This document shows, one piece after another, positions 1 to 17,049 of a stretch of 18,588 bases of DNA. The DNA is from Planctomycetaceae bacterium (GTDB lineage Bacteria > Planctomycetota > UBA1135 > GCA-002686595). The stretch lies in contig JABWBL010000011.1 in NCBI GenBank assembly GCA_013360535.1, forward strand, positions 1 through 18,588, given 5' to 3'. Numbering within the stretch: position 1 is the first letter of the stretch; the number at the start of each line of letters is the position of its first letter. The notes below the pieces were generated by a model. That model worked only from the letters and a program-made list of their open reading frames with translations, did no database searches and was not told the DNA's origin. Both the position numbers and the translations under genes were made by a program.

Positions 1-160
1 TCGCGACCGGCAGCGCGCCGGGGATCGCGACGCAGGCGAGCGCGAGCGCTCCGGCCAGTTGCCGCAGCGCCCGCGAGTCGCGCTTCGCCCTGTCGTCGTG
101 CTCCAAGTGCTTGGGATCCTCGCCCACGCTGTTGTACCGTTTCCCCGTGATCGGCCGCAC
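1..160 (-). CDS. N-terminal fragment of a small predicted membrane protein, cut by the window edge
   Basis: On the minus strand an open frame enters the window's left edge. It reads from a GTG at 160 (other in-frame GTGs lie at 178 and 184) through RPITGKRYNSVGEDPKHLEH, then a basic stretch (DDRAKRDSRALRQ), then the start of a hydrophobic helix (LAGALALACVAIPGALPVA). Nearly every codon ends in G or C, as in the confident genes nearby, and the basic-then-hydrophobic order fits a cytoplasmic N-terminus leading into a membrane segment. There is no ATG available, so the start is uncertain. It is divergent to the flippase gene at 188, with no more than about 30 bases between them. A small AtpZ/AtpI-like or other short membrane protein is possible, but too little is present to name a family. 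Confidence 0.5.
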   Translation of the reverse strand, partial: MRPITGKRYNSVGEDPKHLEHDDRAKRDSRALRQLAGALALACVAIPGALPVA

Positions 161-187
161 GCCCCGCCCCCAGCGCACGTCCACCCG

Positions 188-1468: not shown

Positions 1469-1469
1469 C

Positions 1470-3245
1470 GTGACGCTCACGAAAACGAAGCTCGGCTGGA
1501 TCCTGATCGCGCTGCTGACGCTGGCGGCGCTCTCGCTGCGCGTGCGGGGCATCGCGCACGGCCTCCCGACGTCGCTGGAACTCGACTGCAAGATCCCGCG
1601 GCAGGTGGAGCTGCTCCGCCAAGGTGGCGAGGCGTGGCGCACCGACAAGGAGTTCCGCTGGTACCCGCTGCTCGTCGCGCACCTCGCGAAGAGCCTGCCG
1701 CCGCCGGTGCCGGCCGCGGCCGATGCTCCGCTCCCGCAGCAGCTGCAAGCTGCGGCGGCGCCGCACATCCAGACGCGACTGCTCGTGGCGTTGCTCGCGG
1801 TGCTCGCGATTCCGCTGACGTACCTGCTCGCGCAGAGCTTCGTGAGCCGCCGCTGGGCGTTGCTCGCTGCGGCGCTCGTCGCGACGAGCCTGCTGCACCA
1901 CAACTTCTCGCAGCAATCGCGCCCGCACGCCGTTTCGGGCACGTTGTTCCTCGCTGCCGTCGTCGCGTCGCTGCGCCTGCGCCGCAAGGGCAACGTGCTG
2001 AACTACTCGCTCGCGGGCGCGGCCTGCGCGGCGAGCCTGGGATGCCTGCAGACGGGCGTGTTCACACTGCCGGCGCTCGTCGCGGGGCATCTGGGGCGAC
2101 GCACGGCGACGAAGAAGTGGTTCGACGTGCGCCTCGTGTTGCCGCTCGTGCTGATCGTGCTCTCGTTGCCGGTGTTCTATCCGTTCCTGTTCCTCACCGA
2201 TCCCGGTGAAGCCGCGAGCAACACGAAGAACCTCGGCTTCGACAGCGCGAGCTGGACCGTGTACCTCGGAGGGCACGAGATCTTCCTCAAGCGCTTCCTC
2301 GGCGGCGGCGTCAAGCCGACGGTGTGGGCGTTGTGGAGTTACGACCCCACGCTGCTCGTGCTGCTGCTGGCCGCGGCCGTGGCGTGGCTGCTGCGCAAGA
2401 AGCCGCTCGCGGGCGCGCCTCGAGAGGACGACTTCTCGCGCCGGCGCGACCTCGTGGTGGTCCTGTCGTTCGTGCTGCCCTACTCGCTCACGCTGCTCTT
2501 GTACGACCGCACCTACGAGCGCTTCCTGATTCCGTTGCTGCCGTTCGTCGCCGTGTGGGGCGCGTGGGCGTTGCGCGAGCTCGCGAAGCGCTGCGAGAAG
2601 CTCGTTCCTGCACTCGCCGAGCCGCAGGGGCAGATCGCGCTCGCGGGCTTCGTGCTGCTGCTGCCGAGCTGGGGCTCGTGGAAGCTCTCCCAGATCCGCG
2701 CCGCGCCCCACACCACCACGCTCGCCGCACGCTGGCTCGAGACGAGCGCGCGACCCGACATGGACGTGCGGCTGTGGCCGGGGCTCGACCTGCCGCTCCC
2801 GCGCGAGCTCGAGTCGATCGGGCCGTGGCCGGGCCCGAAAATCGAGCTGGAGGCGCGCTTCCAGTGGCCTTGGACGCGTTATCAGGCCCAACATCCCGAA
2901 TGGCGCGCGGACGAGCGCTGGAAGCTGCGTTGGTGGCCCGCGAAGCTGATCCAGATGCGCAATGAGCCCGGGACCTACGTGGCCGAGCAGATGGGCGAAC
3001 TGGCCGTGGTCGAGGTCTTCGCCGACAACCGCGCCGACCCCGCCGGAACGGCCGTGCGGCAGGCGCTCCAGCGCGACATGGAACTTCTTGCGCGGTTCAC
3101 CCCGGACGGGCCAGGCACGGGCAGCGAGCATCCGCTCGGTTGCCAGGAAGAAACCAGCGTGCAGCCGCCGGCTTTCCTGTGGCGCGTGCTGGGCGCGACG
3201 GGCACCGGGCCCGTGATCGAGGTCTACGGCCGCCCGCGCCGATAA
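1470..3245 (+). CDS. GT39/ArnT-like multi-pass membrane glycosyltransferase
   Basis: This is a 591-residue integral membrane protein with roughly nine to eleven predicted helices and a soluble C-terminal tail. Helix one (residues 8-24) is followed by an external loop with acidic residues E37 and D39 (TSLELDCKIPRQVELLRQ). That is where PMT/ArnT-type (GT-C fold) enzymes carry their catalytic acidic residue. A 'QQSRPHA' motif after the fourth helix resembles the 'RPY/HA' loop of this group. Such enzymes use polyprenyl-phosphate sugars as donors and transfer them on the outer face of the membrane. The start is GTG, one base after the flippase stop, with GAGG at about 1458 as a weak ribosome site inside the flippase end. 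The downstream GT2 enzyme could make its lipid-linked donor. The C-terminal 200 residues match nothing I recognise. The exact acceptor is unknown. Confidence 0.75.
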   Translation: MTLTKTKLGWILIALLTLAALSLRVRGIAHGLPTSLELDCKIPRQVELLRQGGEAWRTDKEFRWYPLLVAHLAKSLPPPVPAAADAPLPQQLQAAAAPHIQTRLLVALLAVLAIPLTYLLAQSFVSRRWALLAAALVATSLLHHNFSQQSRPHAVSGTLFLAAVVASLRLRRKGNVLNYSLAGAACAASLGCLQTGVFTLPALVAGHLGRRTATKKWFDVRLVLPLVLIVLSLPVFYPFLFLTDPGEAASNTKNLGFDSASWTVYLGGHEIFLKRFLGGGVKPTVWALWSYDPTLLVLLLAAAVAWLLRKKPLAGAPREDDFSRRRDLVVVLSFVLPYSLTLLLYDRTYERFLIPLLPFVAVWGAWALRELAKRCEKLVPALAEPQGQIALAGFVLLLPSWGSWKLSQIRAAPHTTTLAARWLETSARPDMDVRLWPGLDLPLPRELESIGPWPGPKIELEARFQWPWTRYQAQHPEWRADERWKLRWWPAKLIQMRNEPGTYVAEQMGELAVVEVFADNRADPAGTAVRQALQRDMELLARFTPDGPGTGSEHPLGCQEETSVQPPAFLWRVLGATGTGPVIEVYGRPRR

Positions 3246-3254
3246 GGCGCTCCG

Positions 3255-3283
3255 TTGACAAGCCCACCCCGGCCGTCAAAGTA
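3255..3283 (+). promoter_or_regulatory. Candidate sigma70-type promoter before the GT2 gene
   Basis: A perfect TTGACA lies at 3255-3260, ten bases after the stop of the preceding gene. Sixteen bases later is CAAAGT (3277-3282), a 3-of-6 match to TATAAT; a 17-base spacer would give AAAGTA. Transcription would start near 3290, leaving a leader of about ten bases or less before the ATG at 3299. No Shine-Dalgarno site is present there. The -35 match is striking in such GC-rich DNA, but the -10 is poor, so this is a candidate only. Confidence 0.35.
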
Positions 3284-3298
3284 CCTCCGCTTTCCGCC

Positions 3299-4279
3299 AT
3301 GGACGCCGCCCTCCTCTCCCGCCACTCGATCGGCGTCGTGATCCCGGCCTACCGGGTCGCGCGCCACATCGAGCAGGTCGTCCGCGGCCTCCCGGCCTTC
3401 GTGAGCAAGATCATCGTCGTCGTCGACGCCAGTCCCGACGACACGTACGAGCGCGTCGCGGCCCTCAAGGACCCGCGCGTCGTGCTGCTCAAGCACGAGG
3501 TCAACCAGGGTGTCGGCGGCGCGATGCAGACCGGCTTCGCCAAGGCGGTCGAGCTCGGGCTCGAGATCGTGGTCAAGATGGACGGCGACGACCAGATGGA
3601 CCCGGCCGAGCTGCCGCACCTGATCCAGCCGCTGGTCCTCGGCCTCGCCGACGTCACCAAGGGCAACCGCTACGAGCACGTCTCCGCGCTCAAGTCGATG
3701 CCCGCCGTGCGCATCTTCGGCAACGCCGGCCTGACCTTCCTCGTCAAGCTCGCCTCGGGCTACTGGAACCTGTTCGACCCGGCCAACGGCTACGTCGCCG
3801 TGCGCGGCGACCTGCTGCGGCGCCTCGACCTCCAGAAGCTGCACAAGCGCTACTTCTTCGAGTCCGGTTTCCTGATCCAGCTCGGCATCATGCGCGCCGT
3901 CGTGCGCGACGTCGCCATCCCCGCGCGCTACGGCGACGAGCAGTCCTCGCTCTCGATCCCACGCACGCTGTTCGGCTTTCCGCCGAAGCTCCTGTGGGGC
4001 TTCGTGCGCCGCATCTTCTGGCGCCACTTCGTCTACGACTTCACCGCGCTTTCGCTCTACTTCCTGCTCGGCCTGCCCTCGCTCCTGTGGGGCGTGATCT
4101 ACGGCTCGATCGTCTGGCTCGAGGTGCAGGAGACGCAGGTCGACGCCACCGCCGGCCAGGTCATGCTCGCCGCGATGCCGATCATCCTCGGCGTGCAGTT
4201 CCTCTCGCAGTGCTTCGCCTTCGACATCCAGAACGTCCCGCGCCAGCCGCTCTGCGGCCCGCTCGAGCCGCGCGACTGA
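3299..4279 (+). CDS. GT2 glycosyltransferase, dolichyl/undecaprenyl-phosphate sugar synthase-like, with C-terminal membrane segments
   Basis: The protein is 326 residues. Residues 10-200 form a GT-A/GT2 domain: strand IGVVIPAYRVARHIEQVV, then the nucleotide loop IIVVVDASPDDT (38-49), then NQGVGGAMQTGF (69-80). The metal-binding acidic cluster is MDGDDQMD (94-101). The order and wording match DPM1/GtrB-type enzymes that move a sugar from a nucleotide to polyprenyl phosphate at the cytoplasmic face. Two hydrophobic segments near residues 236-262 and 277-301 would anchor it to the membrane. The start is the ATG at 3299: it places the Rossmann strand at the usual distance, while the longer frame back to 3140 runs inside the preceding gene. 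Codon third positions are almost all C or G. It plausibly feeds the neighbouring GT39-like transferase. The sugar is unknown. Confidence 0.85.
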   Translation: MDAALLSRHSIGVVIPAYRVARHIEQVVRGLPAFVSKIIVVVDASPDDTYERVAALKDPRVVLLKHEVNQGVGGAMQTGFAKAVELGLEIVVKMDGDDQMDPAELPHLIQPLVLGLADVTKGNRYEHVSALKSMPAVRIFGNAGLTFLVKLASGYWNLFDPANGYVAVRGDLLRRLDLQKLHKRYFFESGFLIQLGIMRAVVRDVAIPARYGDEQSSLSIPRTLFGFPPKLLWGFVRRIFWRHFVYDFTALSLYFLLGLPSLLWGVIYGSIVWLEVQETQVDATAGQVMLAAMPIILGVQFLSQCFAFDIQNVPRQPLCGPLEPRD

Positions 4280-4652
4280 GACAATAGGCCGCGGCGGGCG
4301 GGAAGAGCGGAGGCGATGCTGACGAAAGACGCAACGGTAGCGGTGAGTGCGACGGATTCCCAGTGGACACGATCGGCAACTGAGCGACGAAGGAGAGCAG
4401 CGGGGAGTCGAACTGCATGAGTCGGTCGTTCCCGAAGCGACTGCTCCGCAGGGAGCCTCAGGAGAGGTCGTATCCCTGGGCTCGCAGCAGACGCTGGTTC
4501 GGTTTCTGGAGCGAGGTCTCCCCCCAAGCGATTCTCCGAGCCGCCCTGAGCACATGGAGGGTCTTCGGCATCGACAACACCAGCGTCCTCGCCTCTGTGA
4601 CTGGACGTCAGGACGAATGCAACGTCTACTGAGCGTCGAAAAGGAGCCTTGG
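4280..4652. other. Intergenic stretch without a convincing gene
   Basis: About 370 bases separate the GT2 gene from the propeller gene. Open frames exist on both strands, for example 4417-4632 (plus, 71 codons), but none shows the G/C-ending codon pattern, a ribosome site, or a recognisable protein. Base composition drops from that of the GT2 gene right after 4280, so this is the left margin of the compositional island. I see no clear terminator hairpin after the GT2 stop and no inverted or direct repeat that would mark a mobile element end. A promoter for the gene at 4653 should lie here, but no pair of boxes stands out. Confidence 0.5.
4641..4646 (+). promoter_or_regulatory. Strong Shine-Dalgarno site fixing the start at 4653
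   Basis: AAGGAG lies six bases before the ATG at 4653. This is the clearest ribosome site of any first gene in the window. It rules out the long in-frame upstream extension to 4347, whose translation before the signal peptide looks random. Confidence 0.7.
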
Positions 4653-6323
4653 ATGACTAGCCTGTGCCGTGGCGTTGTTGTGTTGGCCACACTCCTGTCC
4701 CAACTGGCCGTCGGCCAAGGGACTGTGCGCGTGTCCGTTTCCTCGAGCGGAACGCAGTCCGACGGTCCGTCGACTCAGGCTTCGGTCAGTTTCGACGGCC
4801 GACACGTCGCGTTCACAAGCCACGCGACCAACCTGGTCGCGGGCGATGCCAACGCGCTGAGTGACGTGTTCGTCCGTGACCTGGCCGCCGCGACAACGGT
4901 TCGTGTGAGCGTGGGCAGTTCGGGAGTCGAGGGGAACGGAGCCTCCGACCAACCGGCAGTTTCGGGCGATGGACGGTTCGTGGCCTTCAGAAGCCTGGCC
5001 AACAATCTCGTGCCGGGCGACACCAATGGTCGCGCAGACATCTTCTTCCACGACCTTCAGGCCGGGACCACGGTGCGGGCGAGCGTGACCACACTTGGGG
5101 CGGAGCTTACCAACGCGAGTTCCTTGCCATTCTTCAGTCAAGACGGGCGCTACCTCGCTTTCCTCGTCGGAGTGTCGAACCTCGGAGCGGCGGGCATCTA
5201 CGTCCGCGACACAGTGACTGGCGTCACGACGGCACGAATCACTCGCGTCTCTCCCGAAACGGTGTCCCGGCCTTGGCTCTCGGCCACGGGATCGACGGTC
5301 GCAACGTGGGGCTACGATGTCATCGACTTTGGCGAGGGCGGCTACGTCGGACTGGTCGCATCCAGCCCGAGCGGGCCATCCGGCTATTTCAGCTTCGGTG
5401 GACTCACTTGGGATGGACCGAACACGCGTACCGTAGCCATCTCCGCCGACGCGCGATTCGCGGTGATGCAGCACGACGCGGTCATCGGCAACTCGTCCAT
5501 CATGCAGATGAACGTGTACGTCCGCTCGCTGATCACGGGCGCCATGCAGTGCGAGAGCCTCACCCTTGCAGGCGATGGAGCTGGAGCGGTCAACGGCACG
5601 CTGTCCGGGGACGGCTCCTTGGTGGCGTTCGAGAGCTCCTCCCCCCTCCTGATTCAGGCTGACACGGCCGGAGTCCGCGACATCTTCGTACGAAACCGCG
5701 TTTCCGGTCGTACCGCGCGGGTCAGCGGCGGCAGCGGCGCACTTGAATCCAACGGTCACTCGTACAACGCCATGCTCGCCTCCGATGGCGGACACGTTGT
5801 ATTCGAGAGCGATGCGACGAACCTCGTGCTCGACGACAGCAACGGAATGCGCGACGTGTTCCTGGTAGAGCTCGCTCTGAGCGAGCTGAACATCTACACG
5901 TATTGCACCTCTGGCACCACGGTGCACGGCTGCGTCCCGTCCATATCCAGCACTGGAATCCCTAGCGCTAGTACGCCGAGCGGGTTCAACGTCATCGTGA
6001 ACAACCTGGAAGGCGATCGGTACGGCCTGCTGTACTACGGCTTCTACTCAGCGGCTGTCCCGTGGGCGCCTTCGAGCACGAGCTTCCGCTGCGTGTCGCT
6101 CCCGATGCAACGGACGGGAGTGCTCGAGTCGGGTGGCACTGCGGGCCAGTGCAATGGCCATCTCCAGATCGACTTCAACGCTTGGCTCCACGCTCATCCT
6201 GCGTCTCTCGGCAGCCCGTTCGTCAGCGGCCAGGTGTTTCACATGCAAGGTTGGTTTCGAGATCCCGGCGCGCCCAAGCAGACCAACCTGAGCAATGCAC
6301 TGAGATTCGCTCTGCTCGAGTAG
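4653..6323 (+). CDS. Secreted beta-propeller (TolB/PD40-like repeat) protein with planctomycete-type C-terminal domain
   Basis: The 556-residue protein begins with a signal peptide (residues 1-22, LCRGVVVLATLLSQLAVGQG). About six blade repeats follow, visible at roughly 46-77, 104-135, 162-187, 263-292, 318-348 and 376-406. Each has the pattern 'S.DG..VAF.S.A.NLV..D.N...D.FV.D'. The recurring GDANALSD, GDTNGRAD and DDSNGMRD loops could bind calcium. Such WD40-like/PD40 propellers usually act as extracellular binding scaffolds. Residues 413-556 form a separate domain beginning NIYTYCTSGTTVHGC, with four cysteines (C418, C427, C480, C500) and ending QGWFRDPGAPKQTNLSNALRF. I associate this style with the C-termini of secreted planctomycete proteins. 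Codon use is relaxed: in a 20-codon sample from 5100, 14 end in G or C, against 19 of 20 in a sample from 9601. Its ligand is unknown. Confidence 0.75.
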   Translation: MTSLCRGVVVLATLLSQLAVGQGTVRVSVSSSGTQSDGPSTQASVSFDGRHVAFTSHATNLVAGDANALSDVFVRDLAAATTVRVSVGSSGVEGNGASDQPAVSGDGRFVAFRSLANNLVPGDTNGRADIFFHDLQAGTTVRASVTTLGAELTNASSLPFFSQDGRYLAFLVGVSNLGAAGIYVRDTVTGVTTARITRVSPETVSRPWLSATGSTVATWGYDVIDFGEGGYVGLVASSPSGPSGYFSFGGLTWDGPNTRTVAISADARFAVMQHDAVIGNSSIMQMNVYVRSLITGAMQCESLTLAGDGAGAVNGTLSGDGSLVAFESSSPLLIQADTAGVRDIFVRNRVSGRTARVSGGSGALESNGHSYNAMLASDGGHVVFESDATNLVLDDSNGMRDVFLVELALSELNIYTYCTSGTTVHGCVPSISSTGIPSASTPSGFNVIVNNLEGDRYGLLYYGFYSAAVPWAPSSTSFRCVSLPMQRTGVLESGGTAGQCNGHLQIDFNAWLHAHPASLGSPFVSGQVFHMQGWFRDPGAPKQTNLSNALRFALLE

Positions 6324-6835
6324 ATTCGGGCAACGCCGGGAGTTCGCGAAGCCGTGAGCTTGCGAGCTCTCAGGACGTTGGCTGCTCCCCCGGACCGGAG
6401 GCACTTGGCGGCGTACATCTCAAGTGCTTCACAGCTCTTGGGACGACCGCCGGGATTGCGCGCCATCCGACGAGCCTCGAGGCACCTCGGGTTGTGCCGA
6501 CTCCGGTTGCGGAATGAGGAAGTGCGCGGACCGCAGGGCGTGGACTTCTTGCCTTCCGATTCCAACTGTGGGCGGGGTCCCGGCGTTGCGGGCGACGCGC
6601 CGCCGGCGAAGACGAGGTCGACTTCTTGGGAATGCGGCGCCCCTGAGATCCGTGCGACGGAGCGTTGCGCCACTCCAGACAGCGTGGATCAAGGATCGAG
6701 CGCCCATGGCGCAGGTCGATGGAAGTCGTGTCGGTTCAGGCAATCATCACGGAGCCGAAGCACAGGCTCGCAGCGTTTCGCGTTGCACCGAGCCGGGATC
6801 ACCGGCTCGCCGATCCTGCCTGCCGCGATCGCTGA
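6324..6835. other. Intergenic stretch with relaxed composition and no convincing gene
   Basis: Five hundred and twelve bases lie between the propeller stop and the stop of the convergent amidotransferase gene. Several overlapping frames are open on both strands (plus 6354-6842, minus 6239-6673). Their translations are rich in Arg, Ser and Pro, with no domain, no ribosome site and no G/C-ending codon pattern. A 5-bp palindrome (GAGCT-TGCG-AGCTC, 6356-6369) follows the propeller gene but has no T-run. A 7-bp hairpin at 6790-6808 is listed separately. The region could be a decayed gene; nothing in it is recognisable. Confidence 0.45.
6790..6808 (-). terminator. Weak hairpin downstream of the amidotransferase gene
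   Basis: GAGCCGG (6790-6796) and CCGGCTC (6802-6808) form a perfect 7-bp GC-rich stem with a 5-base loop, 27 bases past the minus-strand stop at 6836. No T-run follows in the minus direction, so it would be at best a hairpin-only terminator or a transcript-end stabiliser. Confidence 0.25.
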
Positions 6836-8788
6836 TCAGTAGAGCTTCGGCGCGGCGTTGATCTTCTGGATGGCTTCTTCGAGGTTGAAGCCGACGATCT
6901 GCGCGTATTCGCGGAGGCTCGGCCAGCGCGGGTGGTTGAACTCGGCGGCCTTCTTCAGGGCCTCGTCGCGCGAGAGCACGCCCTCGCGGATCATGTTCGA
7001 GAGCATGACCTCGTCTTCCGAGAAGCCCGCCATCGTCATGTAGATGTAGTTGTAGAACGGCGCGGTGCCGTCGCCGATGCGCCACGTGGTCGTGGTGTCG
7101 GTCGCGACTTCCCAGTCGTATTCGTTGCGGATCGTGTCGACGATCGTGCGCTCGTCCCACTTGAGGTAGTGGAAGAGGTAGAGGAAGTCGTCCTTGACGA
7201 CGAAGGTCTGGTAGTAGGCGTCGAGCGTGTCCTTGAGGGACTCGTTCCAGTAGCCGGGGTTCTTCAGGTAGTTCTTGAAGTAGTACCAGAGCAGGCGGAA
7301 CTCGTCCCACTGGTGCAGGCCCGTGAGCGTCATCCCGTGGTCCTTCTCGCGGATGCCGCACAGGCCCGTCTTGTAGGGCGTGTCCTCGATCATGTTGCCG
7401 GTGCAGAAGATCACGAGCTTGATGCCCGTCTCCTGCCGCAGCTCGCGCGCGTACTTGTAGAACTGCTTGTCGCCCGCGGTGAACAGCGTGACCATGCCGA
7501 GCTCCGGCTTCTTGAGCCAGGCCTCGACGTTCTTGCGCACGTAGCGGCGCTTGGTCGGGATGTCGGCGGAGCGCAGGATGTGCTCGACGCCGAGCTTGCC
7601 GCACAGGCGCGCCTGGTTGCGGCGCGCGAGGTCGGTGACGAGGCCCCAGTCGTACGTGAACGCCACGGGATTCATCCCGAGGTTCTTCTTCACGTAGTGC
7701 AGGCCGTAGGCGCTGTCGCGACCGCCCGAGAAGGCGAGGATCACGTCGGGGCTGCCGTCCTTGGAGCGATAGGGCTCGACCTTGCGCAGGAGCGCCTCCT
7801 CGCCCTTCACTTCGATCGTCTTCCACTTGCGGCAGTAGCTGCAGACGCCGTCGGCGTCGAAGTCCATGAACGGATAGGTCTCCGGCAGGATGCACTTCTT
7901 GCAGCGCCGCAGGTTCTTGCCCGTCTTGGTGTGGTCGATGATCGCGACGCGCGAGTCGACGCTAGAGAACTTCGGCGCGGCCACGGGCGCCGGAGCCTTG
8001 CCAAGGCTGTTGAAGGTCTCGAGGCCGAGGTCGTTCAGGCCGACGAGCAGCCCCGTGCCGGCGTGCAGCTGCTGGATCTCGCACTTGCCCAGCCGATCGG
8101 CGATGCCGGCCGTCTCGAGCATGCGCTGCAGGATGAAGCGCTCCGAGGCGAAGGCGCAGATCGTCTTGCGTTCGTTGGTGACGTAGAAGAGCGATCCCGT
8201 GTTGGTCGCGAGCAGCAGGTTCGACACGTCGTCGAGGAAACACGCGACGCTCGCCGCGCCCTCGATCTCCGCGAACGTCTGCCGCGTCGCCCAGACCACG
8301 TCCTTCGAGGCGTCGAAGTGCTTGCGCAGCACGTTGACGAGCACCTCGGTGTCGACCTCGGTCTTGCGCTCGAGGTCGGGGTGAGCCCGCCACAGGCGCG
8401 CGTCGTTGACGATGATGCCGTTGTGGATCATCACCGAGCCACGCGCGATTACCGGCTGGTTGTTGTCGCCCTCGGTCTGCGCCCCGTTGGTGACGAGGCG
8501 CGAGTGGCCCGTGATCGCGAGCGTCGCCGGCTGGCCGTCGTGCAGCGCACGGGTCCAGCTCGTCAGCGCCGCATCCATGACCTCGGAGTACTTGGGGTTG
8601 GCGAGGAACTGGTCGACCGAGCCCGCCTGCTTGAGGACGTTGATCGTCCGGCCGTCGTGCACCGCCAGACCCGCCGCCTCGCGGCCGCGCGCCTCGGAGC
8701 AACGGAACAGGGCCTCGACGACGCTGCCCGCGAAGGGCGCGTCGAAGGCCGGATCACGGCCGTAGACGACTCCAAAGATGCCGCACAT
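6836..8788 (-). CDS. Fused glutamine amidotransferase: class II glutaminase + zinc ribbon + PP-loop sugar amidotransferase (WbpG/PseA-like)
   Basis: The 650-residue protein has three parts. Residues 1-250 are a class II (Ntn) glutaminase: MCGIFGVV with nucleophile Cys2, GHSRLVTNG (94-102), IHNGIIVN (121-128) and VDTEVL (145-150, D146). These match the GlmS/PurF/AsnB active-site loops. Residues 296-319 hold a zinc ribbon with C296-x2-C299 and C316-x2-C319 (CKKCILPETY, then GVCSYCRKW). From 349 a PP-loop ATP pyrophosphatase follows, with SGGRDS at 354-359. Ribbon plus PP-loop is the layout of N-acetyl-sugar amidotransferases, which adenylate an acetamido sugar and add ammonia to make an acetamidino sugar. 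Here the glutaminase is on the same chain. The ATG at 8788 is the only sensible start, since Cys must be residue 2 after Met removal; the frame stays open upstream without meaning. Transcription is divergent from the gene at 9094. The substrate is inferred only. Confidence 0.8.
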   Translation of the reverse strand: MCGIFGVVYGRDPAFDAPFAGSVVEALFRCSEARGREAAGLAVHDGRTINVLKQAGSVDQFLANPKYSEVMDAALTSWTRALHDGQPATLAITGHSRLVTNGAQTEGDNNQPVIARGSVMIHNGIIVNDARLWRAHPDLERKTEVDTEVLVNVLRKHFDASKDVVWATRQTFAEIEGAASVACFLDDVSNLLLATNTGSLFYVTNERKTICAFASERFILQRMLETAGIADRLGKCEIQQLHAGTGLLVGLNDLGLETFNSLGKAPAPVAAPKFSSVDSRVAIIDHTKTGKNLRRCKKCILPETYPFMDFDADGVCSYCRKWKTIEVKGEEALLRKVEPYRSKDGSPDVILAFSGGRDSAYGLHYVKKNLGMNPVAFTYDWGLVTDLARRNQARLCGKLGVEHILRSADIPTKRRYVRKNVEAWLKKPELGMVTLFTAGDKQFYKYARELRQETGIKLVIFCTGNMIEDTPYKTGLCGIREKDHGMTLTGLHQWDEFRLLWYYFKNYLKNPGYWNESLKDTLDAYYQTFVVKDDFLYLFHYLKWDERTIVDTIRNEYDWEVATDTTTTWRIGDGTAPFYNYIYMTMAGFSEDEVMLSNMIREGVLSRDEALKKAAEFNHPRWPSLREYAQIVGFNLEEAIQKINAAPKLY

Positions 8789-9093
8789 GAGGTGGTGAGG
8801 GTCCTGACTGTCCGGGGGGCCCGGCGGGGACAGGGTGTATCGGCCCAGCGCCCGAGGCGACTCCACGGGAGTCCCCCAAGAGCACCGGGGCGAAGGCGCG
8901 TCCCCTCGCGCACCCCAGACTCTACCCGCCACGGGAGGCTCGCCAAAGGGAAGGGGCTTCCCGAGCAGGCCTCCGGAACCAACCCAGAGGGCTGCCGAGT
9001 CCCCCTGCGAAGCTCGAGCGCTCCGCCCCCCGAGCGGGAGAAATCTCGCGCCTTCGACCGCAGCTCGAGGCGTCCAGTTCCTAGCATCTGGGC
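8789..9093. other. Divergent intergenic region (amidotransferase / arylsulfotransferase-like)
   Basis: These 305 bases must hold promoters for both flanking genes. Open frames cross it on both strands, but they only extend the neighbouring genes or lie antisense to them. On the minus side a TACACC box lies at 8834-8839 with no good -35. On the plus side TAGCAT lies just before the ATG at 9094 (listed separately). Neither start has a Shine-Dalgarno site. No operator-like palindrome stands out. Confidence 0.4.
9082..9087 (+). promoter_or_regulatory. Candidate -10 box (TAGCAT) close to the start codon
   Basis: TAGCAT fits TAnnnT in a GC-rich context, and its last base is six bases before the ATG at 9094. 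There is no Shine-Dalgarno sequence between them. If used, the transcript would be leaderless or nearly so. No convincing -35 lies at the expected distance. Similar TAnnnT boxes precede the genes starting at 17040 (minus) and 17253 (plus). Confidence 0.3.
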
Positions 9094-10614
9094 ATGATCC
9101 CCCACCTGTCCCTGCTCCTCGCCCTCGCCACGCTCCTGCCGCAGGATGCCGCCCCAAAGGACTCCCCGGCCCCGGAACGGTCCTCGGGCCTCACGGTCCA
9201 CAAGCCCGCGGCCAGCGACGGCTACGTCCTGTTCGCGCCCCTCAAGTCGCCCTCGATCTTCCTGCTCGACCGTGACGGCAAGGTCGCGCACGAGTGGAAG
9301 CACGGCTTGCCGCCGCTGGCGGTCTACTTGCGCGAGAACGGCAACGTGCTGCTCTCCAGCCGCATCGACGAGAACCCGACCTTCTTCGGCGGTGGCCTCG
9401 GCGGGCGCATCACGGAGTACGACTGGGACGGCAACAAGGTGTGGGAGTTCGTGCTGAGCGACGAGAAGCGCTCGCTGCACCACGACCTCGAGATCCTGCC
9501 CAACGGGAACGTGCTCGCCATCGCCTGGGAGCACCTGAGTGCCGCCGAGGCGGTCGAGCAGGGCCGCGATCCGCGCTTCGTCGAGGCCAAGGGCTGGTGG
9601 CCGGACACGGTGATCGAGATCGAGCCCCAGCGCCCCAGCGGCGGCAAGATCGTCTGGGAATGGCGCGCGAAGGACCACCTCGTGCAGGACTTCGACGCCA
9701 AGCGCAAGAACTACGGCCAGGTCGCCGACCGCCCCGGCCGCATCGACGTCAACGCCGACCACCGCGACCAGCCGCCGATGACGCCGGAGGAGGCGCGGCT
9801 GGCGCGCGAGGAGGCGAAGAAGCTGCGCGAGCTCGGCTACGCGGGCGGCGACGAGGAAAAGCACGCCGAGCAGGGCGACGCCCCACGCGAGAAGCGCGGC
9901 GACTTCCTGCACCTCAACTCGGTGCACTACGACCCGGCGCACGACCTGATCGCGCTCTCGACGCCACACCTGCACGAGCTGTGGATCCTCGACCACTCGA
10001 CCACCACGGAAGAGGCGCGCGGCTCGACCGGAGGCAAGTATGGCAAGGGGGGCGACCTGCTCTACCGCTGGGGCAACCCGCGCACCTACGGCTGCGGCAC
10101 GCAAGCGGACCAGAAGCTCTTCTACCAGCACCAGCCCGACTGGATCCCCGCCGGCCATCCGGGCGCGGGCCACATCCTCGTCTTCAACAACGGCTCCAAG
10201 CGCGGGCCGGTCGAGTACAGCTCGATCGACGAGCTCGTGCTGCCCTTCGATCCCAAGCTCGGCTTCCAGCGCGAGCCCGGCAAGGCCTTTGGGCCCGCCG
10301 AACCCGCGTGGAGCTACACCGCGCCGGAAAAACCCGACTTCTTCTCGTTCTTCATCTCCGGCACGCAGCGCCTCGCCAACGGCCACACGTTCATCTGCTC
10401 CGGCAAGCAGGGCCGTTTCTTCGAGGTCACGCCGGCGGGCGAGATCGTGTGGGAGTACTACAACCCCTACGGTGGCGAGATCGAGATGACCGCTGGCAAC
10501 GCCGCCCCGCCGCCGAAGGGTCCGAGCCCTGTCGAGGCCACGAGCTGCTTCCGCGCGACGAAGCTCGCCCCGAACCATCCGGGTCTCGCACGCCTGCGCA
10601 ACGCGGCCAAGTAG
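9094..10614 (+). CDS. Secreted arylsulfotransferase (ASST)-family beta-propeller protein
   Basis: The 506-residue protein opens with a short signal peptide (MIPHLSLLLALATLLPQDA). The body is a propeller of the arylsulfate sulfotransferase type, with the family's signature phrases in order: HHDLEILPNGNVLAIAWEH (H129/H130), HLNSVHYDPAHDLIALS (H273), GDLLYRWGNPRTYG (R325), and QHQPDW (H346) before GAGHILVFNNG. Known bacterial ASSTs move sulfate from one phenol to another in the periplasm using a catalytic His plus further His and Arg residues. The His-His-Arg-His order is kept here, though I cannot prove which one is the nucleophile. An unusual charged insert at about 228-272 (PMTPEEARLAREEAKKLREL, then GYAGGDEEKH) interrupts the propeller just before H273. 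Many proteins in this family have no tested activity, so a non-catalytic role is possible. The gene ends 10 bases before a strong hairpin. Confidence 0.8.
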   Translation: MIPHLSLLLALATLLPQDAAPKDSPAPERSSGLTVHKPAASDGYVLFAPLKSPSIFLLDRDGKVAHEWKHGLPPLAVYLRENGNVLLSSRIDENPTFFGGGLGGRITEYDWDGNKVWEFVLSDEKRSLHHDLEILPNGNVLAIAWEHLSAAEAVEQGRDPRFVEAKGWWPDTVIEIEPQRPSGGKIVWEWRAKDHLVQDFDAKRKNYGQVADRPGRIDVNADHRDQPPMTPEEARLAREEAKKLRELGYAGGDEEKHAEQGDAPREKRGDFLHLNSVHYDPAHDLIALSTPHLHELWILDHSTTTEEARGSTGGKYGKGGDLLYRWGNPRTYGCGTQADQKLFYQHQPDWIPAGHPGAGHILVFNNGSKRGPVEYSSIDELVLPFDPKLGFQREPGKAFGPAEPAWSYTAPEKPDFFSFFISGTQRLANGHTFICSGKQGRFFEVTPAGEIVWEYYNPYGGEIEMTAGNAAPPPKGPSPVEATSCFRATKLAPNHPGLARLRNAAK

Positions 10615-10671: not shown

Positions 10672-13600
10672 TCAACGCGCGGGCGGAGCGATCTCGCGGA
10701 TCGCCGCACCTTCGCTCTCGCTCGCGACGAGCACCGCATAGCGCGTCGCGTCGTTCGCGCCCTCGCCCGACATCGAGGCGTAGTCGAAGCGCCCGCGCAG
10801 GTCGGTGTAACCGTCCTTGTGGAAGCGGACGGTCCCGTTGGCGAGCTTCGCGTACACCTTCACGTAGGTCTTCGGCAGCGCCTTGCCACTCGTGCTCGAC
10901 GTGACGGCGAGCTGGCCGAAGTCCTCCATCCACTGCACGCGCAGCGTGCCCTGCAGCAGCGGAACGCGGCGGACGAGGCCCCCCGAGCGGACCTCGACGA
11001 GCACGTTGGCGCCGCGGACTTCGGCGGGCACCTCGACCTTGGTCTGCGCCGCGGTGGCGGACAGCGCGAGCTGCGCGGTCGCGCGCGGCTTGACGAACGC
11101 GAAGGCCTGCGAATCCTGGCCGACAAACGGGTTCGTCGAGAACAGGAACTCGATGTCCATCGGGAAGTAGCTCAGCTCGCACCCGGTCAGGTTCGAGTGC
11201 CGCACGACGAGCCCGCCGTCCTCGACGGAGAGTTCCAGCACCGGCGCGGCCGCGGCGAGGGCAGCCTGCCGCGTGTTGCGATCCTCGCCCACGTTGCGCG
11301 CGACGGCCTTGCCCTCGGCCTCGTCGAGCTGCGCCAGCACCTCGCCGAAGAGCTTCTGCCAGCGCTCGACGGGGAACTCGCGGTAACGCTCCGCGATGGC
11401 CCGCGCGGTGCCCGGATTGTCCGAGAAGAAGGCCGCGTAGGCGCGCAGGTAGTCGAGTTGCAGCTTCTCGCGCACCTGCCGCTCGTCGACGCGCGCGAGC
11501 GTGGCGAGCGCTTCCTCGATGCGATCCTGCAGCAGCAGCTGGTAGGTCGCCTGCATCAGGTCCTCGGCCGAGAGCGTCGGCTTGTGGCACAGGATCGAGA
11601 GCAACTCGCGCCAGCGCTGCTCCGCGAGCTGGTTGCGCACCTCGCGCTTCGCGCCGAAGGCGTGGGCGCGCGGGTTGACCAGCGGATCGAACTCGAGCTG
11701 CTCGCTCTCGAGCTCGAGCACGGGATCGATGCGCACGAGCGGGCTCTGGAGCCACGGTCCGGCGACTTGACTGAGCCCGCGGTCGTGCTCGAGCAGCTCG
11801 CGCGCCCCGAGCTTGTCCTCGTGCAGCAACGCATAGCCCCACAACGTCGAGTCATAGGCGAGCCGCGCGCGCAACGCCCCCGTCAACGCCTCGTAGGCCT
11901 TGCGGTCGCGCATGCGCCACGCGACGCTCGGCAGCGAGACTTGCTCGAGGTTCGATTTGTCGAGGAGCTTGAGCACGTCCTCGAGCGAGCCGCGCTGGCT
12001 GACATACTCCCAAGAGGTCGCGTCGACCTGGCTCGGCTCGGAGAGCACGTTGAAGTCGAGCGCGTCCGCGAAGGCGACGAGCTGCTCCTTCTCGGCGACG
12101 TGCACGGGGTAGTGCGCGAACTTGCCAGGCTTGGGGAAGTAGAACGGCGACTCCAGCCGCGCCGTCGAGTAGGGCTCGAGCCGCAGGCTGACGCCCTTGG
12201 TCGAGCGCCCCGCCGAAAGCGGGACCGACCCAGCCGGCAGCTGGACGAGCAGCTCGACCTCGTGCGGCTCGGCCGTCGGATTCGTGAGCACGACCTGCAG
12301 CGTGTACGGCACGCGCGAGAGGAACTCGCCGCGCACGTACTTCTCGCGCTGCATGCCGTCGACGATCTCGTGGCGATCATCGAGCCGCGCGACGCGCTGC
12401 GTGACGAGCATCGGCGTCGCCGCCGTCGCCTTTGGACTCTCGCGCAGCTCCTTGCGCACCGCCAGCACCGGCGAAGCGGGCAGGATCGTGCGGATCCCCT
12501 GCGCGTCCTCGACCTTCGGCGCCGCGGCCTCGAAGGGCAGGTCGAGCACCGCGAGCGCGAGCAGCATCTCGTTGAGCGAGTCCGTCGCCTGCGGGAAGTT
12601 CGTCGACAGGAAGGGCGTCGCTCCGGCCGCCTGAGCGAAGTCGAGCCAGAAACGGTCGGGGGCGACGAGCCACCCGCCCTGCTCGTGCAGCATCACGTTC
12701 CAGTAGTTGCGCTCCGCGAAGACCTTCGTGGTCCCGACGGGCACGAACAGCTGCTGTTCCTGCGCCCGCCGCAACGCAACATCACCCTCTGCGTCCTTGA
12801 AGGCGCGCTTGTCGAGCTCCTCCGACTCGGCGAGCTCGTTGCGCTCGCCCTCGCCGATGAAGAAGTCGTCCGCCCCGTCGTTCTTGCGCTTCGAGTCCGA
12901 GCCCGGCTCCCCGGCCTTCTCCGGAGACGGCATGTTCCCGCCTCCGCCGATCAATCCGGGGGCGCCCGGCGCCTGACGAGCCGGAGCTCCCGCACTTCGA
13001 TCGGTCAGGAACCCGAGCGTGACGGCGTCGTTGAAGCCGAGGTTGTCGAACGGATTCGCCTGGTCCTTCGCGAGCCCGCCGAGCGCCGTCTGGAAGTCGC
13101 GCTCGAGCTGGGCGAGGTCGACTGGGCGCACCTCCACCGCGTCGCGCACCCAGCGCTGGCCCGCGGCCGTGCGCCCTTGCACGCGCTGCGTTAGGAGAAT
13201 GCGTTCGAGCACGTTGAGCTGCTCGAAGCGCCGCGGCTCGAGGTAGCGCGCGACGTCGTCCCCGAGCAACCAGTGGTCGAGGAACTGCTTCTCGAGCTTG
13301 TTCGCGAGGTACGGCTTGACCACCTCCTCGAAGAACTTGGCGTCCTTGCGCAACAGGAACAGGTGCAGCTCGTGGCAGGCGTGCTCCGAGTACAGGCGCC
13401 GCTTCTCCTGCGCGTCGAGCTTCGGCCAGCGCGTGAGGAACTCGAACGGCGCGAGGCCCGCAGCGTTGCCACCGCGCCCGAGGAAGTACGCGAACACGTC
13501 ACCGAGCGTCGAGTAGACCTGCAACGCTTCGGTCGAGGCTTCATCGACCTTGAGCGTCTCGCCGGCCTTCACGAGCTCGATGCGCCGCTGCTCGACGCGG

Positions 13601-16600
13601 TGCTTCGCCGGATCGAGCGCCGTCATCAGGCGCCGGTCGCGCGCCACCAGCGGCGTGCCCGCAAGCGCGAGCGAACGCGAAACACGATCGCCGGAGTCGA
13701 GCGCGACCACGTGCACGAACGTGCCGTCACCCAGCTGGCCGCGCTTGACGCGCACCACGCCGTCCTTGTCGGGGATCAGGTTCGCGGCGAGCGTGCGCGC
13801 TCCGCCGAGGAACTCGTAGTTCGGCTCGAGTCCGGCTTCGCCGGCAGGGACGCTGTCCCTGCTTTCCATCTCCCGGCCCGAACCGCCACGAGCCTTGAGG
13901 TTCTTGCGTCCGCCGAAGCGTCCGCCCGCGCCCCCGCCGGTGCCGATCGACGTGAACGCCTCGTCGAGCTCCCACGGATTGAGCAGCAGGCTCGGCCGCG
14001 CGAGCATGTTGCCGGGGAACTTGCGCGCGAAGCGACGCTCGAGGATGTAGCGGTATTCGTCGGAGAGTTCGCGACCTGCGCGCAGGTCACTCTCGGGGAT
14101 CTCGAGCGCGAGCGAGCGCTGCGGCAGGTCCGGTTCGTAGCCCAGACGCCCCACCGAGAGCGCGGGCATGTAGCGCGTCGCGAAGACGTGCACGCGTGCG
14201 TCCGGGTCCGCACCCGAGAGCCGCACGACGACTTCGTCGCCTTCCAGCGCGACCCCGCGGATCGCGAGCGGCGCCGAATCGACGAGCTCGAGCGCACGGT
14301 TCGCCCCGATCGCCCAGCCGTCCCGCTTCTCGCCGGCCGTCACCTGCACGCGCACGCTCGCCTGCACGTCCTTGAGCCACAGCAGGTAGTCCCCGGCCGC
14401 CAAGCCGCGCAGCTCGAGGTACTCCCCCGCGAGCGCCAGCCGCTCGAACTCGTCCCGCACCGACGCGGACTTCGATTTGAACGAGTGCAGCGTCGCCACC
14501 GATCGGTCGAGCTTCGTGGCCCTCGAATGGTGCGCGATGCGCAACGTCTCGCCGACGACGCCGCGCAGGACCTGCGGCACCTGGGCGAGCTCATCCTCGA
14601 GCGCCCAGCCGCGCCACTCGCCGCCAAAACCGTTGCAGTTGACGACCTGCACTCCGTCGAGCGTGCCCAGCCGGATGCGCCCTTCCTTGTTCGAGCGCAA
14701 CGACAGCTCGAACTTGTCCGTGTAGTTGCGGTGCTTGAGCTGGAACTGCAGCACGCGGTCTGCCACGGCCTCGCCGGTGCGACCGAGCACGTCGACGAAC
14801 CAACCCTCGGCATCGCGGCCGAGCAGCGGGCAATCGAGCGTGTTGCCGCGCTCGAGCTTCGACAGGTCCACGCTCAGGAGCGAGCAAGCCTGCTCGACCT
14901 TCTCGCCGTCGGAGAGGCGCGTGATCTTGCCGCGCAGGGTCACTTCGAGCCGCGCCAGCCGTCCGGGCACGACGAGCTCGTGCACGAACTCGCGGTCGAG
15001 CCGCAGCTCGAGACCGCGCAGCTCGGCTGTCGCCGCCGTGCCGTCGAAATTGGTCGTCGTCACCGCGAGCACCGCGTCCTCGAGCAGCGACAGCGACGCG
15101 AGCGAGTCGTTCACGAGCAGCCACGGCCGCAGCACAAGCTGCGCCTTCGAGCCCGCGCGCAGCTGCTCGACATCGACGAAGCCGTCCCCGCGCAGCATGT
15201 AACTCTCCTGCGCGTGCTCGAAACGCCCGAGCGCGACCCGGGCGCCACTCTCGAGCACCACCGGTTTTCCACCCGGCTTCGAGGTGAACGGCACGACGAT
15301 CTCGCCCTTGTCGTTGGCGTCGTAGCGGCGGCCTTCGAGGTGCAGCGCGGCCTTGGGCTGCGCGGTGCCGCGCTCGTCGACGACCCGAACCACGTGTCCC
15401 GCCGCGCCCGTGCGCGCGATCAGCTCGAGCCCGCCCTTGCGGATCACGGCGCGGCTCGCGGTGCCGTTGCCGATGAACTCGACCACGTACGTGCCCGGCT
15501 TCGAGAGCCGCGGGAAGTCGAACTTGCGGCGCACGCGCTGCAGCGGGCCTTCGGCGTACTCGAGCGTGCTCTCCTCGTTGGCGACGAGGCCATCGAGATC
15601 GATCGACGCGTCGATCTCCCGCCCCGTGGCCGTGTAGTAGTTGAGCGCGTGGATCTCGTAGACCTTGACGAGCAGCTTGGGGACATTCTTGACGTCGAGC
15701 TCGATTCCGACGGCCTCGTCGGCGCCAAAATGTTCCTTCTGCGTCGGCGCGAAGTGGAGCTCGACCCGCTGCTTGAGCTGCTCGTAGTAACCCGGATCGT
15801 CGAGCAGCGTGTACCAGCGCTCCATGTCGCCGCTGTTCGAGAGGATCTTCGTCTCGGCGAACGTGCGCTTGAGGTACGTCGGCTCGACCAGCGCGTCGAA
15901 GGCCTTGGTGTCGGCGGCGTCGCGCAGGAAGCGCTCGAGCAACGCGCGCACGAGCGGCTCGTCGTTCGCGATCGGCCCGAAGCCCGTGGAGAACTGGCTT
16001 CCGAGCTCGGCGACCTCACGCGTGCGCTCGGCGTTCTCGTAGGCCTTGCGCGGCGTCGTCGTCGAGTTGCGCGGCAGCCGCAGGTAGTCCTGGAAGCGCG
16101 TGAGATCGAGCTCGCCCGTGCGCAGGTCGAGCTGCAGCCGATGGAACGCCACGTGCGCCTTGAACGAGTTGAAGCCACCCGAGAGCCGCGCGGTCAGCGT
16201 CGCGAGGCGCTCGAGGTAGGCGCGCCGCGCCCCGACGTCGCGCTCGACGTTCTCGTCGGCCCCCGGCGCGAGCCGCACCATCCACGCGTTGACGAACTTC
16301 TCGTCGTTGAGGAGCGCCGGCCTGCGCCGCGCGAGCTCCTCGAGCTGTCCGAGCGTCAGCGCGCCGTGCAGCGGGAGGCTCCCGAACCCGCCCGAGTTGC
16401 GCAGCTCCAGATGCCGCAGCACGAGCTCGAGCACGTTGGGCAGGTCCGCCGTTCGCAGCTGCGACATCAGGCTCGCGAACAGCGCGTCGTCGAGCTCCTC
16501 CGCCGCCATGCGTTCGAGCGCCGCCCCGCGCAGGCCCGTCACCGTGCGCGGATGGATCGCCAGCGCCCGCTCCTTCCACGCCGCGTCGCTCACGCTGGCG

Positions 16601-17040
16601 GGATCGAGCTCGGTCGGCACTTCCGGCCGCGCGCCCGGCACGTCCGCCGAGTGGCTCAGGTCGGGCCCGAGCTGGTTGCGCAGCCATTCCCAGCCGCGCT
16701 TGGGATTCTGGTCGAAGGTCAGGAGGTGCTGGCGCACCGCGATCTCGGCGTAGCGCGCGTTCGAGTCGCCGAAGCGCTCGCGCCACGTGCGCAGCAGGCT
16801 TTCGACCGCCGCGAAATCGCCCGCGTGCTGCCGCTCGAGGCACGACCAGTAGTAGAAGGTCTCACTGCCCGGGATCAGCTGCGCGAGCAGCGCCTTGCGG
16901 TCGGTCGAGAGCGCGAACTGCTCCTCGAAGTCGGCCTGCCGCCCTTGCGGCTCCGCCTGCGCCCGCGGCGCGAGGATCCCCAGCCCCAGTCCCGTCGCCA
17001 GCACCGCACCGCACGTCCAACGCTGCATCGTCCGTTCCAT
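10672..17040 (-). CDS. Giant secreted macroglobulin-like (alpha-2-macroglobulin-type MG domain) protein, 2122 residues
   Basis: A signal peptide (MERTMQRWTCGAVLATGLGL, then GILAPRAQA) leads a protein with no later membrane anchor. Residues about 30-420 look helical and solenoid-like. From about 436 come beta-rich MG/Ig-like domains (VKNVPKLLVKVYEIHALNYY and a second at about 530-560). A conserved-looking block at about 985-1020 reads LSDEYRYILERRFARKFPGN. Two low-complexity linkers follow: glycine-rich at about 1028-1060 (GTGGGAGGRFGGRKNLK) and Gly/Pro then acidic at about 1345-1415. A helical repeat-like stretch lies near 1825-1900. The end (2057-2087) carries KTYVKVYAKLANG and FHKDGYTDLRGRFDY. 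No CxEQ thioester is present and cysteines are few (about seven after the signal peptide). I chose ATG 17040 over 17049 because GAAGG at 17050-17054 sits nine bases before it. Macroglobulins trap proteases; whether this one does is unknown. Confidence 0.7.
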   Translation of the reverse strand: MERTMQRWTCGAVLATGLGLGILAPRAQAEPQGRQADFEEQFALSTDRKALLAQLIPGSETFYYWSCLERQHAGDFAAVESLLRTWRERFGDSNARYAEIAVRQHLLTFDQNPKRGWEWLRNQLGPDLSHSADVPGARPEVPTELDPASVSDAAWKERALAIHPRTVTGLRGAALERMAAEELDDALFASLMSQLRTADLPNVLELVLRHLELRNSGGFGSLPLHGALTLGQLEELARRRPALLNDEKFVNAWMVRLAPGADENVERDVGARRAYLERLATLTARLSGGFNSFKAHVAFHRLQLDLRTGELDLTRFQDYLRLPRNSTTTPRKAYENAERTREVAELGSQFSTGFGPIANDEPLVRALLERFLRDAADTKAFDALVEPTYLKRTFAETKILSNSGDMERWYTLLDDPGYYEQLKQRVELHFAPTQKEHFGADEAVGIELDVKNVPKLLVKVYEIHALNYYTATGREIDASIDLDGLVANEESTLEYAEGPLQRVRRKFDFPRLSKPGTYVVEFIGNGTASRAVIRKGGLELIARTGAAGHVVRVVDERGTAQPKAALHLEGRRYDANDKGEIVVPFTSKPGGKPVVLESGARVALGRFEHAQESYMLRGDGFVDVEQLRAGSKAQLVLRPWLLVNDSLASLSLLEDAVLAVTTTNFDGTAATAELRGLELRLDREFVHELVVPGRLARLEVTLRGKITRLSDGEKVEQACSLLSVDLSKLERGNTLDCPLLGRDAEGWFVDVLGRTGEAVADRVLQFQLKHRNYTDKFELSLRSNKEGRIRLGTLDGVQVVNCNGFGGEWRGWALEDELAQVPQVLRGVVGETLRIAHHSRATKLDRSVATLHSFKSKSASVRDEFERLALAGEYLELRGLAAGDYLLWLKDVQASVRVQVTAGEKRDGWAIGANRALELVDSAPLAIRGVALEGDEVVVRLSGADPDARVHVFATRYMPALSVGRLGYEPDLPQRSLALEIPESDLRAGRELSDEYRYILERRFARKFPGNMLARPSLLLNPWELDEAFTSIGTGGGAGGRFGGRKNLKARGGSGREMESRDSVPAGEAGLEPNYEFLGGARTLAANLIPDKDGVVRVKRGQLGDGTFVHVVALDSGDRVSRSLALAGTPLVARDRRLMTALDPAKHRVEQRRIELVKAGETLKVDEASTEALQVYSTLGDVFAYFLGRGGNAAGLAPFEFLTRWPKLDAQEKRRLYSEHACHELHLFLLRKDAKFFEEVVKPYLANKLEKQFLDHWLLGDDVARYLEPRRFEQLNVLERILLTQRVQGRTAAGQRWVRDAVEVRPVDLAQLERDFQTALGGLAKDQANPFDNLGFNDAVTLGFLTDRSAGAPARQAPGAPGLIGGGGNMPSPEKAGEPGSDSKRKNDGADDFFIGEGERNELAESEELDKRAFKDAEGDVALRRAQEQQLFVPVGTTKVFAERNYWNVMLHEQGGWLVAPDRFWLDFAQAAGATPFLSTNFPQATDSLNEMLLALAVLDLPFEAAAPKVEDAQGIRTILPASPVLAVRKELRESPKATAATPMLVTQRVARLDDRHEIVDGMQREKYVRGEFLSRVPYTLQVVLTNPTAEPHEVELLVQLPAGSVPLSAGRSTKGVSLRLEPYSTARLESPFYFPKPGKFAHYPVHVAEKEQLVAFADALDFNVLSEPSQVDATSWEYVSQRGSLEDVLKLLDKSNLEQVSLPSVAWRMRDRKAYEALTGALRARLAYDSTLWGYALLHEDKLGARELLEHDRGLSQVAGPWLQSPLVRIDPVLELESEQLEFDPLVNPRAHAFGAKREVRNQLAEQRWRELLSILCHKPTLSAEDLMQATYQLLLQDRIEEALATLARVDERQVREKLQLDYLRAYAAFFSDNPGTARAIAERYREFPVERWQKLFGEVLAQLDEAEGKAVARNVGEDRNTRQAALAAAAPVLELSVEDGGLVVRHSNLTGCELSYFPMDIEFLFSTNPFVGQDSQAFAFVKPRATAQLALSATAAQTKVEVPAEVRGANVLVEVRSGGLVRRVPLLQGTLRVQWMEDFGQLAVTSSTSGKALPKTYVKVYAKLANGTVRFHKDGYTDLRGRFDYASMSGEGANDATRYAVLVASESEGAAIREIAPPAR

Positions 17041-17049
17041 TCGTGGCAT

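Follow-up and report, generated by a model that had tools for sequence, protein, structure and literature searches.

The 18,588-nt stretch of Planctomycetaceae bacterium DNA analysed here, called the window throughout, carries a gene (10672..17040, minus strand) that encodes a bacterial CAGE, as identified by sequence comparison through a Paratrimastix protein annotated as AbpF. The family is already known, with a name, a preprint and cryo-electron microscopy structures of eukaryotic members, Dictyostelium AbpF among them (PMC12485934). What we add is sequence-level kinship between CAGE and the alpha-2-macroglobulins (A2Ms), along with a named candidate for the bait segment; no paper that we found mentions either the sequence-level kinship or a CAGE bait in its accessible text. 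The likeliest working of the window protein would be that of a thioester-free, protease-triggered trap, to which we give a probability of about 0.4.

The 2025 preprint, 'The CAGE complex', describes a hollow homotetramer of ~1 MDa with D2 symmetry, found in Tetrahymena cilia and as Dictyostelium AbpF, names the Tetrahymena proteins CAGE1–3, and reports CAGE in bacteria and in many protists, e.g., slime moulds and ciliates (PMC12485934). More than two thirds of its homologues are bacterial, with peak prevalence in Pseudomonadati and above all in the Planctomycetota–Verrucomicrobiota–Chlamydiota (PVC) lineages, and most of the bacterial ones have signal peptides predicted by DeepTMHMM (PMC12485934). 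The window protein shares these traits: it has 2122 aa and no Pfam family (CAGE proteins have about 1,900–2,400 aa and no Pfam domain), it passes a crude N-terminal hydrophobicity test for secretion, and the order of regions in our AlphaFold models A and B (helical, beta run, helical, beta, helical, beta) agrees with the preprint's domain list (PMC12485934). A Gly/Arg motif found in linker 1 of its clade sets it apart from the described members.

The identification itself follows from end-to-end homology with a eukaryotic protein. A padded-query search, which restricts candidates to proteins of about 2393 aa or more, gave four matches among 155 candidates, one of which is eukaryotic: P0241 of Paratrimastix pyriformis (Metamonada), a 2416-aa 'putative Actin-binding protein F' encoded on a 1.7 Mb contig. 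Over the C-terminal part used in that search, P0241 matched at 45% identity (E 3.5e-43), and BLASTP with the window protein gave three co-linear segments (E 7e-109, 2e-63 and 3e-58) that span residues 40–607, 578–1245 and 1416–2120. The two proteins are 32.5% identical over 2006 aligned positions, and P0241 keeps 105 of the family's 120 near-invariant positions. Its N-terminal hydrophobicity score is low (1.26 vs 2.0 for the window protein, with a threshold of 1.8), in agreement with the preprint, where eukaryotic CAGEs generally have no secretion signals (PMC12485934). In an 84-sequence tree P0241 sits on a long branch and belongs to none of the starred sets that span up to half the rows, which argues against recent contamination from a sampled group; the placement does not tell the direction of transfer between bacteria and eukaryotes. 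An earlier note on this DNA had suggested a family common to planctomycete-like bacteria and eukaryotes, and the Paratrimastix homologue and the reported CAGE distribution bear that suggestion out (PMC12485934).

The gene is a single unbroken open reading frame, which could equally well begin at an in-frame ATG three codons further upstream. Its product starts with what resembles a Sec signal peptide, and by the same crude test 215 of 242 database proteins of the family have a strongly hydrophobic N-terminal window, consistent with the earlier description of a secreted 2122-residue protein. The features are as follows.

10672..17040, minus strand: CAGE/AbpF-family gene, 2122 aa plus stop; alternative start at 17049
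16954..17040, minus strand: predicted signal peptide, residues about 1–29 (sequence; crude hydrophobicity test)
15841..16953, minus strand: N-terminal mostly helical region, residues about 30–400 (model A)
13999..15771, minus strand: tandem macroglobulin (MG)-like beta domains, NIE-MG1-like onwards, residues 424–1014 (model A, fold comparison, and hhalign of residues 432–791 to planctomycete A2Ms)
15634..15693, minus strand: block 1, VKNVPKLLVKVYEIHALNYY, residues 450–469 (conservation; BLASTP of residues 438–573; Paratrimastix alignment)
14008..14067, minus strand: block 2, LSDEYRYILERRFARKFPGN, residues 992–1011, directly ahead of linker 1 (conservation, alignments)
13831..13998, minus strand: linker 1, disordered, residues 1015–1070, candidate bait equivalent (model A, aligned ranges, length and variability)
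13882..13935, minus strand: Gly/Arg motif GGAGGRFGGRKNLKARGG inside linker 1, residues 1036–1053 (sequence matches)
13651..13821, minus strand: strands past linker 1, residues 1074–1130, probable latter half of the MG domain that bears the bait (model A strands 1055–1096; VIA ranges end at model 1098–1102)
13078..13506, minus strand: helical domain, residues 1179–1321, A2M counterpart not identified (model B)
12787..13071, minus strand: linker 2, disordered, residues 1324–1418, 58–476 long in the family (model B; sequence set)
12037..12420, minus strand: MG7-like beta sandwich, residues 1541–1668, on modest evidence
11317..12009, minus strand: C-terminal mostly helical domain, residues 1678–1908 (model B)
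10684..11259, minus strand: C-terminal beta pair, NIE-MG1-like, residues 1928–2119
10780..10824, minus strand: block 3, FHKDGYTDLRGRFDY, residues 2073–2087 (conservation, Paratrimastix alignments)

Sequence and models together support the CAGE subunit being a divergent member of the macroglobulin superfamily. Fold comparison and profile alignment both find the chain of MG domains that marks the superfamily, and A2M, TEP or C5 chains take all of the first 15 places among the VIA matches to the first half-model, with identities of about 7–14% in the structural alignments to human A2M, A2ML1, C3–C5 and TEP1. In hhalign, residues 432–791 match residues 599–991 of planctomycete A2Ms (E 5.9e-11) and residues 1859–2092 match 2479–2737 (E 3.5e-10); the significant matches are co-linear, and the best E of a reversed control was 0.53. 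Four thioester A2Ms align to residues 435–715 (E 5.7e-6), and BLASTP of residues 438–573, which hold block 1, matches the long planctomycete A2M L086 (E 8e-8). The MG-like domains claimed in the earlier note are thus found by these two methods, although Pfam and NCBIfam do not report them, and the comparisons with E. coli and human macroglobulins that it proposed came out in its favour. A direct hhalign of the N-terminal and C-terminal beta pairs (E 0.003) suggests that residues 1928–2119 may be an internal duplicate of 435–587. Residues 1557–1668 were considered as bacterial MG10 from a weak hhalign match (residues 1557–1751 to A2M 2106–2314, probability 25%), but most fold rows favour MG7 of C3/C4; the bacterial A2M rows of that fold search extend to the C-terminal end of those chains, so any number given to this domain is tentative.

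The same comparisons show how far the window protein departs from the classical bacterial A2M plan, as had been proposed. It shares with the A2Ms of E. coli, Salmonella and planctomycetes (L086) an NIE-MG1-like start of the chain, MG domains, disorder at the putative bait position and an MG7-like domain, and with the long TPR-bearing planctomycete A2Ms a C-terminal domain, but it has no CxEQ and no recognised CUB-TED, and it adds the helical domain at 1179–1321 and linker 2. Human A2M (also a tetrameric trap), A2ML1, complement C3–C5 and insect TEP1 share the MG-domain chain by fold; they differ in that the window protein has no thioester and no significant PDB sequence match. The thioester motif GCxE[QN] occurs in none of 321 family sequences, as expected from the reported lack of CxEQ, and a looser CxE[QEN] pattern with limited middle residues occurs in 15 of 317, ten of these at residues 357–420 in the N-terminal helical part. 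No Pfam model for A2M (PF00207), MG2, BRD or TED matches the window protein at E <= 10. Nine of 50 fold rows run over the C-terminal helices (to model 851–853) into later parts of C3, C4, C5 or CD109, with a root-mean-square deviation of 18–23 Å that makes them uninterpretable, and the lack of a clear TED match is in itself no evidence that TED is absent. The best explanation is that the CUB-TED region has been lost or has become unrecognisable. The preprint gives Foldseek top matches to A2M for single domains 4 and 6, and its accessible text names no bait (PMC12485934).

The long planctomycete A2Ms (L086–L088, L109–L119 and L124) have about 2590–3150 aa, L087 being partial, and PF00207 is found in all but L087. 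By regular expression 13 of the 15 lack a CxEQ-like motif, so thioester loss is common in that class too.

Of 7994 candidates scored in the protein database, 1918 are homologues at E <= 0.01. Lengths in the best 120, the query among them, run from 2061 to 2157 aa, and the others in that set are 40–89% identical to the query and, where named, are called hypothetical or uncharacterised. A scan of GTDB genomes found at least 563 encoding loci, of which the best 80 carry the submitted labels Planctomycetota, Verrucomicrobiota, Lentisphaerota, Kiritimatiellota, Hydrogenedentota, Ozemobacter, one Deltaproteobacteria bin and unnamed bacteria; homologues are thus spread over several phyla, not confined to one genus. 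Of 199 genomes in the window's phylum 50 have a match, a number that falls to 47 once distant matches to macroglobulin-like proteins (G033, G052 and G072) are removed and the fragment-only G097, G139 and G192 are kept. Among 41 relatives taken as a smaller set, 24 give a match, and 15 still hold a family copy once motif-only and A2M-like matches are set aside by eye. The 30 pattern matches in viral contigs include no relative.

No Pfam or NCBIfam family matched the single protein query even at E <= 10, and PDB sequence searches with the single protein and with family profiles gave nothing significant. Pfam searches with four other members were likewise without a significant match, with two weak sub-threshold matches in one member and one in another. 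For P0236 the protein database assigns the Pfam accession PF28559.1, which the Pfam copy that we used did not report, so a newer family may cover part of the protein. In another planctomycete the gene is present as a short, broken copy interrupted by a stop codon (G097:C207:74936-75699), and two or more CAGE copies occur in Candidatus Uabimicrobium amorphum, a bacterium noted for phagocytosis-like uptake (L047, L061). P0240, P0242 and P0243 (2394–2538 aa) group with Verrucomicrobiota in the tree and have an enlarged linker 2, and TPR domains are annotated in P0240 and P0243.

Conservation is concentrated unevenly. Among 199 aligned sequences 120 columns are at least 97% conserved, and the three blocks that had been singled out as strongly constrained (55 residues in all) hold 16 of these, against about 3 expected. 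Of the 16 columns 11 lie in block 3, four in block 2 and one in block 1. Mean majority frequencies in the 25-residue rows which hold most of blocks 1, 2 and 3 are 0.66, 0.78 and 0.73, and by eye P0241 shares 8/20, 9/20 and 14/15 of their residues. By near-invariant columns, block 3 is much more constrained than the other two.

Two disordered linkers had also been predicted, and AlphaFold gives a predicted local distance difference test score (pLDDT) below 50 for most of residues 1015–1070 and 1324–1418. Linker statistics come from 320 sequences, an uneven sample made up mostly of top matches near the window protein or consensus plus genome loci. Between the anchors W1023 and L1078 linker 1 has 49–81 residues, the central 90% of values being 50–56, and 98% of the sequences have at least two Lys/Arg in it. 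Over 3000 random pairs its identity averages 0.20, compared with 0.69 for the preceding 39 residues, 0.41 for those after it and 0.12 for linker 2. VIA ranges cross linker 1 and end at residues 1011–1020 of E. coli and Salmonella A2M, past the bait, which in E. coli A2M is disordered at about 923–963 (PMC4498604). These aligned ranges, which set the strands on either side of linker 1 before and after the bait, support placing linker 1 at the A2M bait position, and its position, disorder, variability and constant presence fit a candidate bait. The suggestion that both linkers are bait-like thus holds, as a candidate, for linker 1; with lengths that range from 58 to 476, linker 2 does not resemble one.

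Linker 1 bears a GG[AS]GGxFGGR-like motif in 73 of the 320 sequences. The long A2M L086 has a comparable Gly/Arg motif between its BRD and A2M domains, and L087, L110 and L119 have one too. The motif is not specific, since non-macroglobulin, membrane-anchored toroid proteins carry it too, where it is perhaps a processing or docking site. In the window's own genome (L083:2235-3812, contig C178), as in L084 and L085, a similar Gly/Arg motif (IGIGGGAGGKFGGRFGGRKNLKARGG) precedes a squalene-hopene-cyclase-like domain; the L083 protein has 525 aa, with an apparent transmembrane stretch and an acidic Pro/Glu-rich stretch as well. Short matches to linker 1, read by eye, occur in 521–759-aa open frames of 15 of the 41 genomes.

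Elsewhere in the window, 137–10611 encodes a polysaccharide flippase, a PMT_2-like glycosyltransferase (just under the cut-off), a GT2 protein, PD40 repeats, a glutamine-amidotransferase-domain protein and an arylsulfotransferase-like protein. From their sequences, this is a glycan-synthesis neighbourhood.

Macroglobulins are known for trapping protein-cutting enzymes, and a CAGE trap might work as follows. The bacterial protein would be exported to the periplasm or paryphoplasm. There, outside the cytoplasm, it would assemble into a hollow homotetramer of about 1 MDa, as the solved eukaryotic CAGEs suggest. Its subunit retains the MG-domain chain, the disordered bait-position segment, the MG7-like domain and the C-terminal region of the planctomycete TPR-bearing A2Ms. 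A protease would enter the cage and cut the flexible segment of fixed length (residues 1015–1070), which would free the bait-bearing MG domain, numbered MG8 in bacteria, so that the cage closes or alters access. The protease would then be retained by steric confinement, without a covalent bond. We hold as doubtful the wider proposition that CAGE arose as a thioester-free macroglobulin cage with a hypervariable bait, descended from bacterial TPR-bearing A2Ms by CUB-TED loss, and later became intracellular in eukaryotes.

Adjacent A2M genes count in favour of the trap, though they are rare: in one genome (L125:2110-14660) a CAGE gene comes immediately after a co-oriented thioester A2M frame of 2035 aa that carries GCTEQ, with 163 nt between the frames, and A2M-like genes flank two of 80 CAGE loci (L075 on both sides, L080 upstream). 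Several observations weigh against it. PF00207 A2Ms show no association with CAGE, being present in 32 of the 47 genomes that have it and in 109 of the remaining 152, and no widely conserved neighbour was found in 80 loci plus the window (up to 9 kb on each side, many flanks being shorter). The largest neighbour cluster covers 11 stretches and resembles a protein kinase, and the window's neighbours fall in none of the 25 recurrent clusters listed. The near-constant length of linker 1 would also suit a structural strap, and eukaryotic CAGEs generally have no secretion signals (PMC12485934).

These last two points fit a competitor that we hold almost as likely as the trap, in which CAGE is a constitutive container or holdase-type chaperone of the periplasm or paryphoplasm and its linkers are uncut flexible gates or straps. 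A hollow tetramer with a cavity of about 600 cubic nm and side openings, diverse protein contacts inside and outside the cage (PMC12485934) and the missing thioester all suit such a container, whereas macroglobulin kinship and a hypervariable segment at the bait position would need an extra reason, and the preprint's authors saw no substrate density in the cavity (PMC12485934). It is improbable that CAGE is instead a scaffold or an adhesion or cytoskeletal protein, with its MG and helical domains serving to bind partners such as actin and Asf1 in eukaryotes or envelope polymers in bacteria, and its cage shape a secondary matter. AbpF does bind actin, and two Tetrahymena CAGEs bind Asf1, as cited in the preprint, but the cage architecture is kept at about 25% identity between Tetrahymena and Dictyostelium (PMC12485934). 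The window gene does lie near glycan-synthesis genes, but the 80 loci offer no widely conserved neighbour. Actin and Asf1 are eukaryotic partners that would not be expected in a bacterial periplasm, which also counts against a scaffold. An ordinary bacterial A2M that decayed after losing its thioester, with no family of its own, could account for MG domains without CxEQ, a motif also absent from most long planctomycete A2Ms, but PF00207 does not match. The 120 conserved columns, the spread of relatives with about 2100 aa across several phyla and conservation over the full length in a eukaryote exclude decay, and we consider such an origin exceedingly improbable.

The discoverers of CAGE describe its function as unknown (PMC12485934), and A2M kinship together with a candidate bait at a fixed place makes the choice between chaperone, container and trap a testable one. 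If the trap is real, a macroglobulin-type trap that works without a covalent thioester would exist across many unicellular eukaryotes and PVC bacteria, and an ancient side branch would be added to the evolutionary history of complement-like proteins.

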